This document shows positions 18,037 through 25,006 of a DNA stretch of 33,600 bases, one piece after another (position 1 is the stretch's first letter; each line of letters begins with the position of its first letter). Origin of the DNA: a virus; the IMG/VR virus record IMGVR_UViG_3300049489_001327, positions 1 through 33,600 of that record. One strand, given 5' to 3'. Below the pieces are notes generated by a model. That model saw only the letters and a program-made list of their open reading frames with translations, was not told where the DNA came from and ran no database searches. A program made the position numbers and the translations under genes.

Positions 18037-18051
18037 AGGTCCTCCTGACTA

Positions 18052-18148: not shown

Positions 18149-18934
18149 ATGAATGATTTGAAAGTGTCCGATTCTGCTTCGTCCAGCGTGTCCAGCGTGG
18201 ACACAGCGCGGGCGGTGGATCAGGCGCGCACGGCCTTTCTGATGGCCAAGACGCACCCGCGAGACGAGGCTCAGTCGTTGAATCGGATACGGGAGGCGTG
18301 TCAGCGGACGGCGTTGGCGCAGGTGGCGCTGTACCGGTACCCGAGGGGGGGACAGAACGTGACGGGTCCGTCGATACGGCTAGCGGAGGTTCTGGCGCGG
18401 TACTGGGGGAACATCGACTGTGGGGTGCGGGAGTTGGAGCAGAGGGGTCATGAGAGCGTGATGGAGGCGTTCTGTCACGATTTGGAGACGAACTTTAGGC
18501 GTTCGATTGTGTGGACGGTGCGTCACGAGATGCACACGCGTTCGGGGGTGCGGACCCTGACGGATCCTCGGGACGTGTACGAGCGCATAGCCAACGACGC
18601 GTCGCGGCGTCTGCGCGCCTGCATTCTGTCGGTGATCCCCAGTCACATCTCGGATGAGGCGGTGGGGGAGTGCGCCCGCACGCTGCAGAGCGGAGGCCGG
18701 GAGCGTCCTCTGATCGATCGGATCCGCGCTATGGTCCAGGCCTTCGCGGCTCTGGGCGTGAGCCGTGAGATGCTGGAGAGGCGGCTGCAGTGCGAGATCA
18801 CGGCGCTAACGCCCGATCAGCTCGTTGAGTGCATCGGCATCTACACAAGCCTGAGCGACCGCACGTCCAAAAAGGAAGATTGGTTCCCTGTGGAGGCGCA
18901 CGCGCCTTTGGGTCTGTCCGAAAATACGCAATAG
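18149..18934 (+). CDS. Recombination/replication-region phage protein (261 aa)
   Basis: The ATG at 18149 has the SD AAGGAG. Residues 30-100 contain THPRDEAQSLNRIREAC and YPRGGQNVTGPSIRLAEVLA (64-83), and residues 135-165 contain LTDPRDVYERIANDASRRLR. I recognise this combination from a conserved family found near recombination genes in phages and integrative elements. A ssDNA-annealing or related role has been suggested for such contexts, but I cannot confirm it. N-terminal residues 5-20 are a Ser/Val-rich disordered tail. The gene is led by a promoter with two dyads and followed after eight bases by an exported-protein gene. Confidence 0.7.
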   Translation: MNDLKVSDSASSSVSSVDTARAVDQARTAFLMAKTHPRDEAQSLNRIREACQRTALAQVALYRYPRGGQNVTGPSIRLAEVLARYWGNIDCGVRELEQRGHESVMEAFCHDLETNFRRSIVWTVRHEMHTRSGVRTLTDPRDVYERIANDASRRLRACILSVIPSHISDEAVGECARTLQSGGRERPLIDRIRAMVQAFAALGVSREMLERRLQCEITALTPDQLVECIGIYTSLSDRTSKKEDWFPVEAHAPLGLSENTQ

Positions 18935-18942
18935 GAGGTTTT

Positions 18943-19392
18943 GTGTCTCTGCAAAAACAGGCTGTGTGTCTTCTGTTGGGGTCTCTGGTGTGTTTGACGG
19001 GTTTAGCGGAGACGTCCGATGAGGGGTTTGGCTACTACCTCTACAAGGGGCCTTACGATAAGCCCGCCGTTGTGGAGGGGGTGACTCCTGACGAGGTCTG
19101 GCAGTTCTCCCACCCCAAAAACCAAGTTAAGATTTGGAACATCGAGTGTCTCTTTGACTACAAAACGGGCATGAGGGACCATTCGGTGCGTGTGTGGGTG
19201 ACCAACGGTGTCATCGCGACCAAATCGCAATGCGACGGCCTCATCCCCGCTGCCCTCTACTTCCACAACAGCTCTGCGGGTGCGAACGAGCGTCTGCACA
19301 CATGCGAGTGCGTGCAGGGGCCCGAACGGTCCGTCGTTGCGGAGCTCGCGGCCCTGCGCCGGCTCATCAAGGACAGGGGCTACCGCTACTGA
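18943..19392 (+). CDS. Exported small protein with signal peptide (149 aa)
   Basis: The GTG at 18943 has a perfect AGGAGG; the longer reading from 18829 runs inside the previous gene and is rejected. Residues 1-22 (MSLQKQAVCLLLGSLVCLTG and LA) form a signal peptide with likely cleavage at GLA-ET. The mature part is about 127 residues with four Cys (IECLFDYK, SQCDGL, TCEC), which could form disulphides in the periplasm. Exported phage proteins made early often change the host surface or block superinfection; that is inference. The stop overlaps the convergent AlpA-like gene by seven bases. Confidence 0.75.
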   Translation: MSLQKQAVCLLLGSLVCLTGLAETSDEGFGYYLYKGPYDKPAVVEGVTPDEVWQFSHPKNQVKIWNIECLFDYKTGMRDHSVRVWVTNGVIATKSQCDGLIPAALYFHNSSAGANERLHTCECVQGPERSVVAELAALRRLIKDRGYRY

Positions 19393-19838
19393 TCGTTCCC
19401 CTCCTCGTAGTCGTAGGGCGTGTACCCGTGCACGGTGTGGAGGGCGAGTTCGGCCTCCTCGTTGGCCCGTTGCCTCAGGCTCTCCAAAAAGCGGTCAAAG
19501 ACCTCTTTGTGCCACCTCCTGACAAACGGGTTGAAGTCTAGGGGCTTGGGGATGACCCCTCTCTTGATGGCCGCTCGCAGTGTGGTCTTGCTGATGTTCA
19601 GAATCTGGATGACGTCTTCGACGGTGTAAAAGTCCGTCTTCAGCTTGGGCTTGACCGCCAGGCTCTTGCGCCGCGTGTGGATGCCGGGAGGGCGGCCCCG
19701 GGATCGGATCCCCACCGCATGGGCCGCGCCCTCCACCACCGCCTGGCTCTTGTGGTTCATGTAGCGGCCCGCGGGGCGACCACGGCCTCTGCTCGCTGTC
19801 TCCGCTGTCTCAACCGCTTTGGCCTTTTTACTCGCCAC
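19386..19838 (-). CDS. AlpA-like HTH regulator with two AT-hook-like motifs (150 aa)
   Basis: I use the GTG at 19838, with GGGGAGG four bases upstream; the longer TTG reading from 19862 runs through that SD. Residues 17-30 (RGRGRPAGRYM) and 44-58 (RSRGRPPGIHTRRKS) are two similar RGRP motifs of AT-hook type. Residues 70-120 (FYTVEDVIQILNISKTTLRA, then PFVRRWHKEVFDRFL) match the AlpA/excisionase-type helix-turn-helix. It probably binds DNA as a transcription regulator or architectural factor; the AT-rich segment next to it is an obvious target. It is one of only four minus-strand genes. Confidence 0.75.
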   Translation of the reverse strand: MASKKAKAVETAETASRGRGRPAGRYMNHKSQAVVEGAAHAVGIRSRGRPPGIHTRRKSLAVKPKLKTDFYTVEDVIQILNISKTTLRAAIKRGVIPKPLDFNPFVRRWHKEVFDRFLESLRQRANEEAELALHTVHGYTPYDYEEGNDQ

Positions 19839-20058
19839 ACAACCTCCCCGTTCTAAAAACAAAAAAACAAATTAAATCAATTTGACACATGAACCCTTCT
19901 AAAGCAACGCCGCGCAAAGGCCAAGTTATTTTTGCAATAAGGGGTAAGTTCGAAAGTTGCTGGAAGGGGAAATGACGGCTAGCACCGCTAAGACAGCTTA
20001 AATGAGGTGTCTAAGCCCAAAGGCTCATTGACGTTTTCAAAATGTTTTTGTAAATAAA

Positions 20059-20098
20059 AAAACTCTGCGGCTCTCTTGTCAGATTCACGCAGAGTTTT
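20059..20098. terminator. Strong 11-bp hairpin with T-run, likely minus-strand terminator
   Basis: AAAACTCTGCG (20059-20069) pairs perfectly with CGCAGAGTTTT (20088-20098), with an 18-base loop. On the minus strand the stem is followed by seven T and then ATTT, a good intrinsic terminator; on the plus strand only four T follow. No minus-strand gene lies to its right, so it may end a short minus-strand RNA or work in both directions. Confidence 0.6.
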
Positions 20099-20142
20099 GG
20101 ATCAACCAACTAGACAAGTTTTAGAAAGGAATCTTTATAAAA

Positions 20143-20198
20143 AATCTCTAATCAATCTCTTAACTAGAAGAATCTTTAATCAATCTCTTAACTAGAAA
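20143..20198. repeat. Tandem 28-bp direct repeat (two copies)
   Basis: Unit 1 (20143-20170) and unit 2 (20171-20198) are adjacent and match at 26 of 28 positions. Each contains TTAACTAGAA. A related ACTAG lies at 20109-20113 and an inverted CTAGTT at 20315-20320. The arrangement suggests binding sites for a repressor or for one of the winged-helix proteins. No spacers are present, so it is not a CRISPR. Confidence 0.75.
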
Positions 20199-20299
20199 GG
20201 CTTATCTAATTAATCGCTTTTAAAACACAAAGCCTGAATTGTGGCTCTGTAACAACGGCTTTAAATCGCCCGTCATCTTTTTTTTTGTACCTTTTCGGC

Positions 20300-20404: not shown

Positions 20405-21046
20405 ATGACACAAAATTCGCCTGTCGTCCGCCCCCGTTGTTTAAAGCGAGAGATTAAGCTTTTTGACAACCTTCGATTGATAAATGGCATCACCATTGCG
20501 GATCATCTTTATTTCAATTTGATATGCGAATTGCAAACAAAGGGCCGTCGGTTTTACCCTACGCACGAAGCCGCTGCTGAAAAGCTAGGCGTTTCAAGAG
20601 CGACTATAATAAAAACAGTCGCCAACCTTCTCAAATACGGAATCTTGGGCGAAGGCCCCCGCTGCGGGCGCTCAAAAGAGTTTTTCATTCATCCGTTGGA
20701 GAGCTGGGAGTTTCTTGTCCCTATCCTTCAAAAAAAGGTAGAAGAATCGGAAAAAGAATTCCCCTTTTTAACGTGGTTTTTGAAGCAGAACGAAGGCGTC
20801 ACAGACAACCTAAGTCTCAAGTTCTCACCAGAGAAAGTAAAAGCAGTAAAGAAAACCAAAAGAGCCTTTAAATCCATGGAATCACAAGAACCTCAGGAGG
20901 AACTCCCGGAGTTTGAGTTCCCCGCAGAAAGGGTCAAAACAGAGAGAGTCAAGAAGACGCCTAGTGACGCAAGAGTGCTTAAAGACATACGGATTGCCAC
21001 AGAGGCTTTGGCTCGCCTTCTGCAGGAGCTGAAAAGTGAGAGCTGA
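20405..21046 (+). CDS. Winged-helix DNA-binding protein (213 aa)
   Basis: I start at the ATG at 20405, with GAGGAG seven bases upstream; the longer reading from 20351 has no ribosome site. Residues 28-110 carry a helix-turn-helix with wing (HEAAAEKLGVSRATIIKTVA, then KYGILGEGP and SKEFFI). This region is paralogous to the N-terminus of the next gene: I count about 37 identities over 81 residues. The rest is charged and ends with a helix. It lacks the long C-terminal part of its paralogue, so it may be a regulator or a competitor at the same DNA sites. A terminator follows. Confidence 0.8.
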   Translation: MTQNSPVVRPRCLKREIKLFDNLRLINGITIADHLYFNLICELQTKGRRFYPTHEAAAEKLGVSRATIIKTVANLLKYGILGEGPRCGRSKEFFIHPLESWEFLVPILQKKVEESEKEFPFLTWFLKQNEGVTDNLSLKFSPEKVKAVKKTKRAFKSMESQEPQEELPEFEFPAERVKTERVKKTPSDARVLKDIRIATEALARLLQELKSES

Positions 21047-21063
21047 GTACGCAACACAAGAAA

Positions 21064-21111
21064 AAAAAGTTATAAATGACTCTATGACACTAGAATCATT
21101 CATAACTTTTT
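21064..21111 (+). terminator. Terminator after the first winged-helix gene
   Basis: AAAAAGTTAT (21064-21073) pairs with ATAACTTTTT (21102-21111); after one mismatch AATGA pairs with TCATT. The right arm ends in a T-run. It lies 18 bases after the stop of the 213-aa gene, so this gene appears to be transcribed as its own unit. The left arm has an A-run, so it could also act on the minus strand. Confidence 0.65.
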
Positions 21112-21175: not shown

Positions 21176-21241
21176 ATGAACACGGGACCGATTGGAGGAC
21201 AAAACCCACTTTTACAAACGGACATTAGAATCAGATTTTAA
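21176..21241 (+). CDS. Possible 21-aa leader peptide
   Basis: An ATG at 21176 opens 22 codons ending in TAA: MNTGPIGGQNPLLQTDIRIR and F. AAGGAG lies 11 bases upstream, rather far. It sits between the terminator and the initiator gene in a 290-base gap. It could be a leader peptide or chance; there is no homology to judge by. The same gap has a promoter-like pair, TTGCGT and CATAAT, 18 bases apart (about 21144-21173). Confidence 0.25.
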   Translation: MNTGPIGGQNPLLQTDIRIRF

Positions 21242-21337
21242 GCTTTTATCACTATCATCTCACATCACCACTCTATCGCGTCCCCACAGTTTAGCAGACA
21301 AAAGGACAGAAAGAGTGTAACTAACGAAAGACAATTG

Positions 21338-22960
21338 ATGTCTCAAGCTTATTCTACCGTGCTTAGGAGCACTCAAGTCCAGAATCAAACCTTATCCAAT
21401 TATGGAAAGGCTGATGTTCTGAATTTTAGCACACCTAATAATCTGCGCAACGAAGAAAAGTGGATTGATTTTTTACGATCCATCAACTTTCTAACCATCG
21501 CGGAACATGCCTATCTTTTCCACCTAATCGGCTTCCAAAAAAAAGGCTTGTCTTTATACAAAAAGCACGCAACCGTTGCTGAACATCTTGGGTTTAGCAA
21601 AAGAGCTATCGAAAACGCAGTTGCTAAACTCAAACAGTACGGATTTTTAAGAGAAGGACCCAGAAAACGCAAGTCAAAAGAGTTCTTCATCCGCCCTTTT
21701 CAACAATGGCACTTCCTTTTGCCTTTTGTCGATTCCAAAGTCAAGCATTTTAAAAAAGGCAAAAAACCGTGCCCTCACATGGAAATGTTTACTAAATTAA
21801 ACGAAGGCGCTGAAAAAAACCTTGAACTCATTATAGACTTCAAAGAAGATATTGAGGCTATTAAGAAAAGTAAGAAAAAAGCGGTCTACTCTGAACCACA
21901 TTTCTATCCGCCAGAGCCGAACGGGAAGCCGAAAACCTCGGCTCAAACCGGCGGGCAGAAATGTGGTGCTGGCGGGCAGAAATGTGGTGCCATTAGAAAC
22001 AAGATTTTAAAAAATACAAATACAAATACAAACAACAACATTAGGGAAAAATTTTGCTTAGAAGATGTGATCGAGGGGAAGGGGGGTCTGAAGGTCGATC
22101 GCAAGGGTGTAAAATTTGTTTCTTTAATCAACCGTGAGATCACCCGATGTGGGGAGGAGGGGTTGAAAAAAATTCTCGAGGTCTACGGAGAGGGCTTTGG
22201 GGAGGTGGATGACGAAGGAATCGAAGGAATCGAAGGAATCCGATCCTTCTGCTTCGCTTATGTGATGGCATACCATTTAAAAGCGTTTAGAGGTGTCAAA
22301 TTTGCTTTTGTATCGAAGACGGATAGGGATGCCCTTCGACGAACGTCTATGACCCCAGGAATGTCTCTAAACGATTTTCAAAAGCAGATGCCTTTTTTCT
22401 GTCAAAACAGCTGGGGATACGCCCATGGATTCACGACGTACAGTTCGAATCGAATGCGTATGAGGAGAGCGTCTCGTTCCTTTGGATCCTTATCAGTGGA
22501 TACGGTGTCTATCGTGCCTGTGGTGTCGTCTGTCGTCTCTGTTGTGAAGAGACAGGAGGTCAAGATCGTTAACAACACCAAAAGGGTTGCCGCAGACGCG
22601 TTGCCTCCTATAAGCGGGGAGAGGAAGACAGAAATCCTTGTTAAGGTGAAAGACAGGGAAGACAGGAAAGACACTGTTGTGGCCTCAGCACCTGTGGTTC
22701 AAAAATTAGAGACAACGATAGAGCAAAAGATGACACCAGAGGATGTTCTTAGGGCGTGCTGGGTGAAGGCGCGTGTGTATTACGTGATGCTCGGGGATCG
22801 CACGTTGGAGGACACAAAGGATCTGCCCGATAACGTGTTAGCGTTTTTTGAGGCCAGGGGTTGTGCCCCCTGCAAGACACGCGTGGAGTTTTTCAAGACA
22901 TTTAGCATCACTCAGACGCTGGCGGCTTTAGGAGAGCCCCTCACAGCAAAAGCCTCCTGA
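21338..22960 (+). CDS. Candidate replication initiator, O-like layout (540 aa)
   Basis: The ATG at 21338 (TTG at 21335 is also in frame) has only a weak GAAAG upstream. Residues 50-130 are a winged helix-turn-helix (HATVAEHLGFSKRAIENAVA, then QYGFLREGP) paralogous to the previous protein. Residues about 185-240 are a Pro/Gly/Asn/Thr-rich linker (GGQKCGA twice, then NTNTNTNNN). The remainder (240-540) has a conserved-looking segment (IRSFCFAYVMAYHLKAFRG) and a long Val/Lys-rich stretch. The linker DNA holds repeats and an AT-rich tract, as in lambda gene O. A helicase-loader-like gene and dnaB follow, which supports a role in recruiting the helicase at the origin. No enzyme motif is seen. Confidence 0.7.
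   Translation: MSQAYSTVLRSTQVQNQTLSNYGKADVLNFSTPNNLRNEEKWIDFLRSINFLTIAEHAYLFHLIGFQKKGLSLYKKHATVAEHLGFSKRAIENAVAKLKQYGFLREGPRKRKSKEFFIRPFQQWHFLLPFVDSKVKHFKKGKKPCPHMEMFTKLNEGAEKNLELIIDFKEDIEAIKKSKKKAVYSEPHFYPPEPNGKPKTSAQTGGQKCGAGGQKCGAIRNKILKNTNTNTNNNIREKFCLEDVIEGKGGLKVDRKGVKFVSLINREITRCGEEGLKKILEVYGEGFGEVDDEGIEGIEGIRSFCFAYVMAYHLKAFRGVKFAFVSKTDRDALRRTSMTPGMSLNDFQKQMPFFCQNSWGYAHGFTTYSSNRMRMRRASRSFGSLSVDTVSIVPVVSSVVSVVKRQEVKIVNNTKRVAADALPPISGERKTEILVKVKDREDRKDTVVASAPVVQKLETTIEQKMTPEDVLRACWVKARVYYVMLGDRTLEDTKDLPDNVLAFFEARGCAPCKTRVEFFKTFSITQTLAALGEPLTAKAS
21893..22060. other. Candidate replication origin: iteron-like repeats and AT-rich tract inside the initiator gene
   Basis: Two tandem 21-bp repeats (21950-21970 and 21971-21991) differ at one base and share the core GGCAGAAATGTGGTGC. 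An inverted copy lies at 21893-21912 (17 of 20 positions match). A hairpin AGCCGA/TCGGCT (21927-21943) lies between them. Directly right of the repeats, 21992-22060 is very AT-rich with a repeated AAATAC. Iterons followed by an AT-rich unwinding tract within the linker of an initiator gene is the layout of the lambda origin. Confidence 0.6.
22214..22240. repeat. Three tandem copies of GAAGGAATC
   Basis: The 9-bp unit is repeated exactly three times within the initiator gene and encodes EGI repeats. It looks like slippage expansion in a loop of the protein. The following TCCTTC can pair with the last unit. Confidence 0.7.
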
Positions 22961-23207
22961 GGCCCTTTAAGGCTATCGATTGAGGCACAGAAGGGAAACG
23001 TATTCAACGACTCCGTCGTGAGCCTATAAAAGCCTCTAATGATTCAATAGAGGTTACGTAGTCGTCTTTGTGTCTTTGTGATCCTGGGTTGTGATTGAGG
23101 GTGGGTAGAAGCGGGGTTCACTTTTTCTTCCTTGACAAAATTTTTGTCGACATTGAAGACATGCCGTCAGTTGTCAGAATTTGACGCAAAAATGCAAAGG
23201 AGATGGT
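22961..23207. promoter_or_regulatory. Intergenic control segment with a 15-bp palindrome over TTGACA
   Basis: No gene is seen. The segment contains hairpins ACGAC-TCC-GTCGT (23007-23019) and CCTCTA/TAGAGG (23033-23053), and the palindrome GACAAAA-T-TTTTGTC (23134-23148), which overlaps a consensus TTGACA (23132-23137). No good -10 lies 16-18 bases downstream, so the promoter is uncertain, but a dyad over a perfect -35 suggests a repressor or activator site for the loader and helicase genes. Confidence 0.5.
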
Positions 23208-23555
23208 GTGGACGCTTTGAAAATTTTGAAAGCTTTGAACGCTTTTTTAAGAACAACCGACTTTCCTGAGACTGACATGCGTAACGCTGTTGCTGCAGAT
23301 CGCGTGACGCGTGGGGATCCAGACAGAAATTTGCTTTATTCTAAACTTGTGTTCGTGTGCGCTCTTTTGGAGCCAGAGGTTGATATTTTTAACGTCCATG
23401 TTGCGTCTATGTATTTGGACAATTTGGAGGGCATCCCCATGGAAACGCTTGGTAAAGCTTTTGATCATATTGTCAAAACGATGCCTTCTTTTCCCAAAAT
23501 ATGCCACATCATACGGGTTTGTGATGAAATCAGCAAAAGGGAAAAGATAGAATAA
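23208..23555 (+). CDS. Small replication protein, helicase-loader-like (115 aa)
   Basis: The GTG at 23208 has the SD AAAGGAG five bases upstream; earlier in-frame starts overlap that SD. The product is helical and soluble. Its second half has the pattern MYLDNLEGIPMETLGKAFDH, then MPSFPKICHIIRVCDE, which resembles the helical domain of phage replisome-organiser or helicase-loader proteins, where a ladder of short helices ends in a FP-x-I-x-x-I motif. Position directly upstream of dnaB and downstream of the candidate initiator supports a loader role. It has no ATPase motif, so it would be a lambda P-type (non-ATPase) loader if correct. Confidence 0.6.
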   Translation: MDALKILKALNAFLRTTDFPETDMRNAVAADRVTRGDPDRNLLYSKLVFVCALLEPEVDIFNVHVASMYLDNLEGIPMETLGKAFDHIVKTMPSFPKICHIIRVCDEISKREKIE

Positions 23556-23626: not shown

Positions 23627-25006
23627 ATGCGTATAATCCAAAAAAAGGAACGAGGGGGTAGAGACTTGGCTCCCCCGCATTCCACCCCTGCGGAACTTGC
23701 CATCATCGGATCCATCTTTGCCAATCCTGGCAAAATCCACTCCTTCGCGGACAGACTCAAACCTCGTTATTTCTATTCAAGCCGTCATCAGGTTTTGGTG
23801 GAGGCCATCGTTGAGTTGGCGACAGAGGGGGTTGCCCCTGACGTGGTCAATGTGTTTGAGCGTTTGCGCTTCAATCACGGTGATCGGGTGGCGGAATCCG
23901 CCGAACATCTGATGGGATTTTTGGATTTCTCGACCTATTCAGAAAACGTTTTTGTCTATTTGGATGAGGTCAAAAAGTACTGGGAGCTTCGGGAGCTGAT
24001 TTTGAAATGCGACGAGATTGCGGAAAGGGGTCGAGGGATCAAAGGCGCTTCTGTGAGCGCTTTTTTGGCGGACGTAGAGAAGACCTTTCTGGAAATTTCC
24101 GAGTCCCGTTTGGTTCAAGGGCTCGTGCCCGCCACAGACGTTGTGAGCGAGACCATCCAGTCTTTGGAACACATCTTGGCCAACCCCCACCAGGGCGTCA
24201 CGGGTGTGGGTACGGGGTTTGGGGATTTGGACCACATCACAGCGGGGTTTCAGCGCTCCGACCTCATCATCCTTGCTGCGAGACCGGCCATGGGGAAGAC
24301 CGCTTTGGTTCTCAATTTCGCAACTCACGCAGCGCTTGTTGAGAAAAAGCAGGTTGCGTTTTTCAGTTTGGAGATGAGCAAACAGCAGTTGATGCAACGG
24401 ATTTTGGCCACAGGTGCAAAGATCAAATCGCAGAAATTCCGTGATGGCAGTCTCACGCAAACAGAGCTTGATCGCCTCTACCCCAAAGCCGCCCACCTCC
24501 AAACCGACAAGCTCATGATCGACGACACGCCCAGCATCAGCCTGTTTGAACTCAGCAGCCGGTGCCGGAAGATGAAGAGGGAGAAGGGAGCCTGCGATCT
24601 GGTCATCATTGATTATCTTCAACTGATGTCTGCTGGAGAGTCGTTTTCCGCAAAGGCCACCCGTGAAAGGGAGATCAGCACCATCAGCATGGGACTAAAA
24701 GCCTTGGCAAAAGAGCTCAACTGCCCCGTCCTCTCCTGTGCCCAGCTGAACAGGGGTCTCGAGATGCGCCCCGACAAGAGGCCACGGCCCAGCGATCTGC
24801 GGGAATCCGGCTCCATCGAACAGGATGCGGATCTGATTTTTTTCATTTACAGAGACGAGGTCTACAATAAAGACACCCTGGAAAAAGGCGTTGCCGAGCT
24901 CATCATCGGCAAAAACCGTCATGGACCCATCGATACCATCAAATTGGCTTTTTTAAGTGACTTCACATCATTCCACAATCTGGCAAAAAACAATCCTTTT
25001 CTCTAA
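23627..25006 (+). CDS. dnaB: Replicative DNA helicase, DnaB family (459 aa)
   Basis: The N-terminal domain begins LAPPHSTPAELAIIGSI (14-30), typical of DnaB. The RecA-type domain has Walker A ARPAMGKT (218-225), the SLEM motif (247-250), Walker B LVIIDYLQLM (325-334) and KNRHGP (429-434) near the end. Length matches bacterial DnaB. It is the hexameric 5'-3' helicase of the phage fork. The ATG at 23627 has no clear SD; a TTG at 23666 with GAGGGGG upstream would give a normal DnaB N-terminus and may be the true start. With no phage polymerase visible, it presumably works with the host replisome. Confidence 0.96.
   Translation: MRIIQKKERGGRDLAPPHSTPAELAIIGSIFANPGKIHSFADRLKPRYFYSSRHQVLVEAIVELATEGVAPDVVNVFERLRFNHGDRVAESAEHLMGFLDFSTYSENVFVYLDEVKKYWELRELILKCDEIAERGRGIKGASVSAFLADVEKTFLEISESRLVQGLVPATDVVSETIQSLEHILANPHQGVTGVGTGFGDLDHITAGFQRSDLIILAARPAMGKTALVLNFATHAALVEKKQVAFFSLEMSKQQLMQRILATGAKIKSQKFRDGSLTQTELDRLYPKAAHLQTDKLMIDDTPSISLFELSSRCRKMKREKGACDLVIIDYLQLMSAGESFSAKATREREISTISMGLKALAKELNCPVLSCAQLNRGLEMRPDKRPRPSDLRESGSIEQDADLIFFIYRDEVYNKDTLEKGVAELIIGKNRHGPIDTIKLAFLSDFTSFHNLAKNNPFL

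Follow-up and report, generated by a model that had tools for sequence, protein, structure and literature searches.

A probable origin of replication within the initiator gene of a tailed phage with its own DnaB helicase

The gene of a candidate replication initiator contains, in the part that encodes its linker, a group of short repeats followed by an AT-rich tract, and the question is whether these sequences are the origin from which the phage replicates. A sequence-only reading had described them as a lambda-type origin. The window, that is, the whole stretch of DNA that was analysed, is the complete virus record IMGVR_UViG_3300049489_001327 (positions 1-33,600). Its two ends are identical over 127 bp, and the record thus represents a complete genome, a circular unit of 33,473 bp, as the same reading had assumed. 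Family profile searches recognise genes of a tailed phage, those of the terminase and of a P22-like portal. The features of the region are listed in Table 1.

Table 1. Candidate origin, replication genes and neighbouring repeats (coordinates of the window)
Feature	Position	Strand	Remarks
Two 28-bp direct repeats, 93% identical	20140-20195		Intergenic, very AT-rich
Truncated initiator paralogue	20405..21046	+	213 aa from ATG 20405; 231 aa from TTG 20351
Initiator-like gene, 540 aa	21338..22960	+	ATG 21338; TTG 21335 also possible
Inverted iteron copy	21893..21912	-	17/20 to unit
Long imperfect stem	21893..21990		Inverted copy can pair with either direct copy
Small hairpin GAGCCGA (21914-21920) / TCGGCTC (21938-21944)	21914..21944		17-nt loop
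Iteron 1, GGCGGGCAGAAATGTGGTGC	21950..21969	+	Repeat comparison
Iteron 2, identical to iteron 1	21971..21990	+	21-bp spacing, about two helical turns
Putative DNA unwinding element	21992..22060		AT-rich, weak duplex; encodes NKILKNTNTNTNNNI
124-aa ORF between initiator and dnaB	23181..23555	+	Predicted all-helical, low confidence
DnaB replicative helicase, 459 aa, N- and C-terminal domains	23627..25006	+	Pfam, PHROG

All three iteron copies fit in 98 bp of the linker-coding DNA. The tandem copies are identical in 20 of 20 positions, or in 20 of 21 across the full unit, and the inverted copy also reaches 18 of 20 when taken as the arms 21895-21914 and 21969-21988. The small hairpin is nested within the inverted pair, between the inverted and the direct copies. 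The tandem repeats, the inverted copy and the hairpin had all been noticed in the sequence-only reading and are confirmed here. Folded as single-stranded DNA, the long stem has an energy of -28.3 kcal/mol (z = -6.2); a wider fold of 176 nt has z = -4.4.

The best other match to the iteron unit on either strand of the whole genome has 14 of 20 positions. The consensus of the three copies, with three mismatches allowed, recovers these and no other sites (chance expectation 0.06), a scan that is descriptive only, as the consensus was derived from those copies. The direct repeat has a score of 20, and when the codons of the gene were shuffled synonymously 300 times, no direct repeat as strong arose (maximum 18); the inverted repeat alone is weaker, its score of 14 being equalled in 2 of 150 shuffles. 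The probability that the seven repeated codons are identical through codon choice alone is about 7e-4. The direct copies encode the peptide GGQKCGA twice and the inverted copy encodes the unrelated EPHFYPP, so the latter copy is not forced by the protein. The iteron repeats are seen in no other phage among those searched. The single match to the iteron pattern in IMG/VR, in contig L037, lies in tail-type or unknown genes of an AT-rich phage and was judged to be due to chance.

The tract downstream of the repeats, which had also been pointed out from the sequence, is indeed AT-rich from 21992 to about 22060, its A+T content being 82% in the 50 bp that begin at 22005 and 79% in the 70 bp that begin at 21997. 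Among 40-bp duplexes, the segment 21992-22031 ranks as the weakest of the gene and as the second-weakest non-overlapping one of the genome. It starts at gene nucleotide 658, one nucleotide past the end of the iterons. Two control genes were analysed with the same script. In lambda O, the weakest 40 bp start from gene nucleotide 436, just after the end of the annotated iteron 4 at 433; in gene 18 of P22, they start from nucleotide 435, inside the annotated rep_origin. Thus lambda O and P22 gene 18 have the same layout, in which the repeats precede the gene's weakest duplex. By simple proportion (our own estimate), the weakest duplex of a 1.6-kb gene would fall within 10 bp of the repeats by chance in less than 1% of cases.

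Comparison contigs were those retrieved from IMG/VR with the DnaB of this phage. Five of them (L012 and L014-L017) have initiator-family genes near or directly before dnaB, encoding proteins of 233-305 aa and containing intragenic tandem repeats of their own; in L014, L016 and L017, among others, the initiator assignment is confirmed by PHROG matches. The types of repeats include 23-bp (L014), 24-bp-spaced (L016), 15-bp-spaced (L017) and 12-bp (L012), and all sequences are unlike those considered here. A weak duplex occurs at the repeats or shortly downstream of them in L012, L014, L016 and L017, but not in L015. In the rep gene of TP901-1, which also contains intragenic repeats, the weakest duplex does not adjoin them. 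Thus iterons followed by a weak duplex are a common layout, not a universal one.

The reading frame of the candidate initiator opens with TTG at 21335, which gives 541 codons, and the ATG at 21338 gives 540 aa. The protein consists of an N-terminal winged helix (about residues 40-130), a linker and a large C-terminal region. The N-terminal domain alone matches O-like initiator families, namely PHROG 270 (E=1e-5), phrog_391 (8e-5), phrog_428 and 678, and also phrog_8102, which supports the winged-helix protein of the sequence-only reading. The match to Pfam HTH_36 is below the cut-off. The nearest folds found by Foldseek with the predicted model are winged-helix regulators of the CodY/MarR type, all with E above 0.001. 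The AlphaFold model is confident only in the winged-helix domain, and the C-terminal 300 residues have no family match. Because the models are poor outside the winged helix, no claim is made about the folds of the C-terminal region or of the 124-aa protein.

Alignment of the initiator with lambda O and P22 gp18 by hhalign gave probability 0 with very shallow, two-sequence profiles; the link to the lambda O family is indirect, through the O-like PHROGs only. Pattern-seeded searches, which distant relatives may escape, found no relatives of the initiator, its paralogue or the 124-aa ORF in IMG/VR or phage records, and none of the initiator and the paralogue in GTDB genomes.

The dnaB gene lies on the same strand, 667 bp downstream of the initiator gene, and its assignment is based on matches to Pfam DnaB_C (1.8e-101) and DnaB (7.8e-15) and to phrog_19 (1.5e-106). 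The closest "phage" DnaB matches (MT83xxxx) were set aside, as their dnaB genes are surrounded by ordinary bacterial genes and the records look like chromosome fragments. The 124-aa ORF before dnaB has no family or PDB sequence match, and its fold model (pLDDT 50) is too poor to use. By position, the same as that of SPP1 gene 39, it is possible that this protein is a helicase loader, and the chain from initiator to helicase may therefore be SPP1-like.

The GC skew changes its sign within the initiator gene, from -0.11 before the repeats to +0.21 after them, with the coding strand unchanged. The G+C content also shifts, from 38.5% to 49.5%, so the skew change could instead be due to a mosaic joint at the linker. 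The whole-genome skew places no origin here: its global minimum is at 18045, with an amplitude that is not significant (P = 0.08). There are no DnaA boxes near the candidate origin.

An O-like winged helix, iterons in the linker, the adjoining weakest duplex, a downstream DnaB and the local skew change together assign the locus to a class of origins. These sequence features are very probably best explained by an intragenic iteron origin like those of lambda O, P22 gp18 and SPP1 gp38, and it is likely that the phage replicates in the theta mode from an origin embedded in its own initiator gene, with a mechanism as in those three systems. Several observations count against this assignment: the presence of two direct iterons and one inverted copy versus four in lambda and P22, the whole-genome skew, the lack of detectable homology to lambda O and P22 gp18 in the profile alignment, the lack of relatives in the collections searched, the repeats of L015 and TP901-1 that do not adjoin the weakest duplex, and a competing AT-rich repeat locus at 20140-20195. 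The name given to the origin in the sequence-only reading holds in part. The class stands as the best explanation of the repeats, the weak duplex, the winged helix and DnaB; the label "lambda-type" is loose, as the phage-borne DnaB is P22/SPP1-like and no homology is detectable in the shallow profiles.

Since this phage encodes a DnaB itself, it is nearer to P22 and SPP1 than to lambda. The arrangement 18/origin/12 of P22, and 18-12 of phage L, similarly features repeats internal to the initiator gene, an AT-rich tract and a phage-borne DnaB downstream (PMC8022706). An Asn/Thr-rich stretch of the linker covers the melting region in both P22 (INTNTP) and this phage (NTNTNTNNN). However, P22 has four repeats of about 20 bp and phage L has six of 11 bp, compared to two direct copies and an inverted one here; the repeat sequence differs from that of P22, this initiator is twice as long, and the extra 124-aa ORF precedes dnaB. 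In SPP1, genes 38 (oriL), 39 (loader) and 40 (DnaB) form a similar series of an initiator with internal direct repeats and an unwinding element, a small protein and DnaB (PMC6316719), although no relation of the 124-aa protein to G39P is detectable. In lambda, O is an initiator of the winged-helix type, and ori-lambda has its iterons halfway along gene O, with an AT-rich tract immediately 3' of them (PMC5043065). On the other hand, the four iterons of lambda show internal dyad symmetry and are bound by O dimers, and the helicase of lambda is the host DnaB, recruited through P, whereas this phage has a unit without evident internal dyad, one inverted copy and its own DnaB.

Lambda, P22 and L each carry different iterons within the initiator gene (PMC8022706). 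A new initiator should therefore come with a new iteron sequence, which is unsurprising by itself. An origin within the initiator gene is an already known kind, and this phage very probably adds to it a member with new iterons. Its less usual traits are the long hairpin formed with the inverted iteron, the size of the C-terminal region and the truncated initiator paralogue shortly before the gene. It is another example of the pattern in which the iteron sequence is particular to each intragenic phage origin, the fixed part of the pattern being iterons, then the weakest duplex, then the helicase gene.

The mechanism may be outlined by analogy to lambda, P22 and SPP1, from which all its biochemical steps are taken, the anatomy being that of the sequence. 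The N-terminal winged helix of the initiator would bind all three 20-21-bp iterons of its own gene, and the complex would melt the adjoining AT-rich tract 21992-22060. The phage DnaB would be loaded at the melted tract, either by the initiator itself, through its C-terminal region, or via the 124-aa protein. The host replisome would then take over, with replication in the theta mode and dependence on the host polymerase; the latter step is proposed because none of the genes scanned with family libraries was recognised as encoding a phage polymerase or primase.

Upstream of the initiator gene lies its truncated paralogue, which consists of the winged helix only, is 43-46% identical to the initiator and has no iteron/AT segment. 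Its matches to PHROG families overlap those of the initiator. Possibly, it is a replication regulator, and such a truncated copy would be a possible route from initiator to regulator. Comparison with plasmids yielded weak matches to HTH/RepL proteins of small plasmids (the best about 7e-4, over about 48 residues); these say no more than "Rep-type winged helix". One could imagine a duplicated system, in which the full-length initiator acts at the intragenic origin with a functional cruciform or hairpin of the iterons, and the paralogue, having its own 28-bp repeats, serves as a regulator or acts at a second origin. This arrangement is unlikely; if true, it would be an initiator-derived copy-number switch in a phage.

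The 28-bp repeats, with perhaps a third, degenerate copy near 20200, could also mark the origin themselves, which is the strongest of the competing explanations. Then the intergenic AT-rich locus at about 20115-20240 would be bound by the paralogue or the initiator, and the intragenic repeats would be either accessory, as a second origin like in the oriL/oriR pair of SPP1, or regulatory. The repeats at 20140-20195 have the best tandem-repeat score in the genome (103), the weakest 80- and 100-bp duplexes of the genome start from 20115-20134 onward, and the paralogue gene is just downstream. However, the 28-bp unit is unrelated to the intragenic iterons, a scan of the genome with it recovers its own two copies only, and the locus does not have the iterons-then-unwinding-element layout of the controls. 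Moreover, it lies between a leftward HTH_17 regulator gene (19386-19862) and the early genes, which run rightward; operators and promoters would be expected in such a position, and thus the locus suits an operator better than an origin. We consider it quite improbable that this locus is the main origin.

Another possibility is that the initiator or a different protein of the phage binds the intragenic repeats as an autoregulatory or a packaging/partition site. Copies in both orientations and a fold into a long hairpin would be in keeping with a regulatory binding site or a cruciform as well. However, the repeats are deep in a coding region and directly beside the weakest coding duplex, share their arrangement with known origins and contain no promoter-like or terminator-like feature of note, which makes such a function very doubtful. 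Least credible of all is a chance or protein-level repeat: one slippage could have yielded both tandem copies as a recent in-frame 21-bp duplication (GGQKCGA twice), and the Asn/Thr/Lys-rich linker could happen to be AT-rich, as hydrophilic linkers frequently are, but the direct repeat is not reproduced in synonymous shuffles, and the inverted copy, encoding another peptide yet matching the unit in 17 of 20 positions compared to at most 14 in the rest of the genome, is left unexplained.

A 449-aa protein of the phage is related to one of Silvanigrella phage CP017838 (tblastn 41%), which also has the portal and terminase in common with it. Structural genes are shared with IMG/VR contigs L025-L028 (portal 48-49%). 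Contigs L025-L028 and L031, related in the structural module, contain neither the initiator nor DnaB; no gene of either was found in the fetched parts of G001-G003. Thus the replication module has a separate history. The intragenic origin and its initiator, if correctly identified, are experimentally testable and belong to a phage group, the structural relatives of the Silvanigrella phage, without studied replication.

The structural module (window 1-33473; L024-L028) is akin to CP017838 and several IMG/VR contigs. These contigs use a different replication/recombination set, which suggests a group with swapped replication modules. The 261-aa protein encoded at 18149-18934 strongly matches phrog_3657 (1.7e-93), a family of unknown function present in 86 diverse phage records; in Gordonia phage Mutzi it is annotated as ssDNA-binding. 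Rfam and tRNA scans of the phage returned nothing.

Additional repeats were observed around the replication genes. A strong stem at 20059-20098 (AAACTCTGCG...CGCAGAGTTT) has a T-rich tail on the minus strand and might terminate a short RNA transcribed leftward close to the initiator genes (cf. oop of lambda). Between the paralogue and initiator genes, a 21-bp inverted repeat (21064-21111) is terminator-like on both strands and is followed by a 21-codon ORF at 21177 (MNTGPIGGQNPLLQTDIRIRF). The initiator gene contains a second inverted repeat at 21708-21773, about 120 bp upstream of the iterons, with 20-nt arms that are 80% complementary (fold z = -2.9). Finally, in the C-terminal half of the same gene, the 9-bp repeat CGAAGGAAT occurs three times at 22213-22240 and encodes EGI three times.
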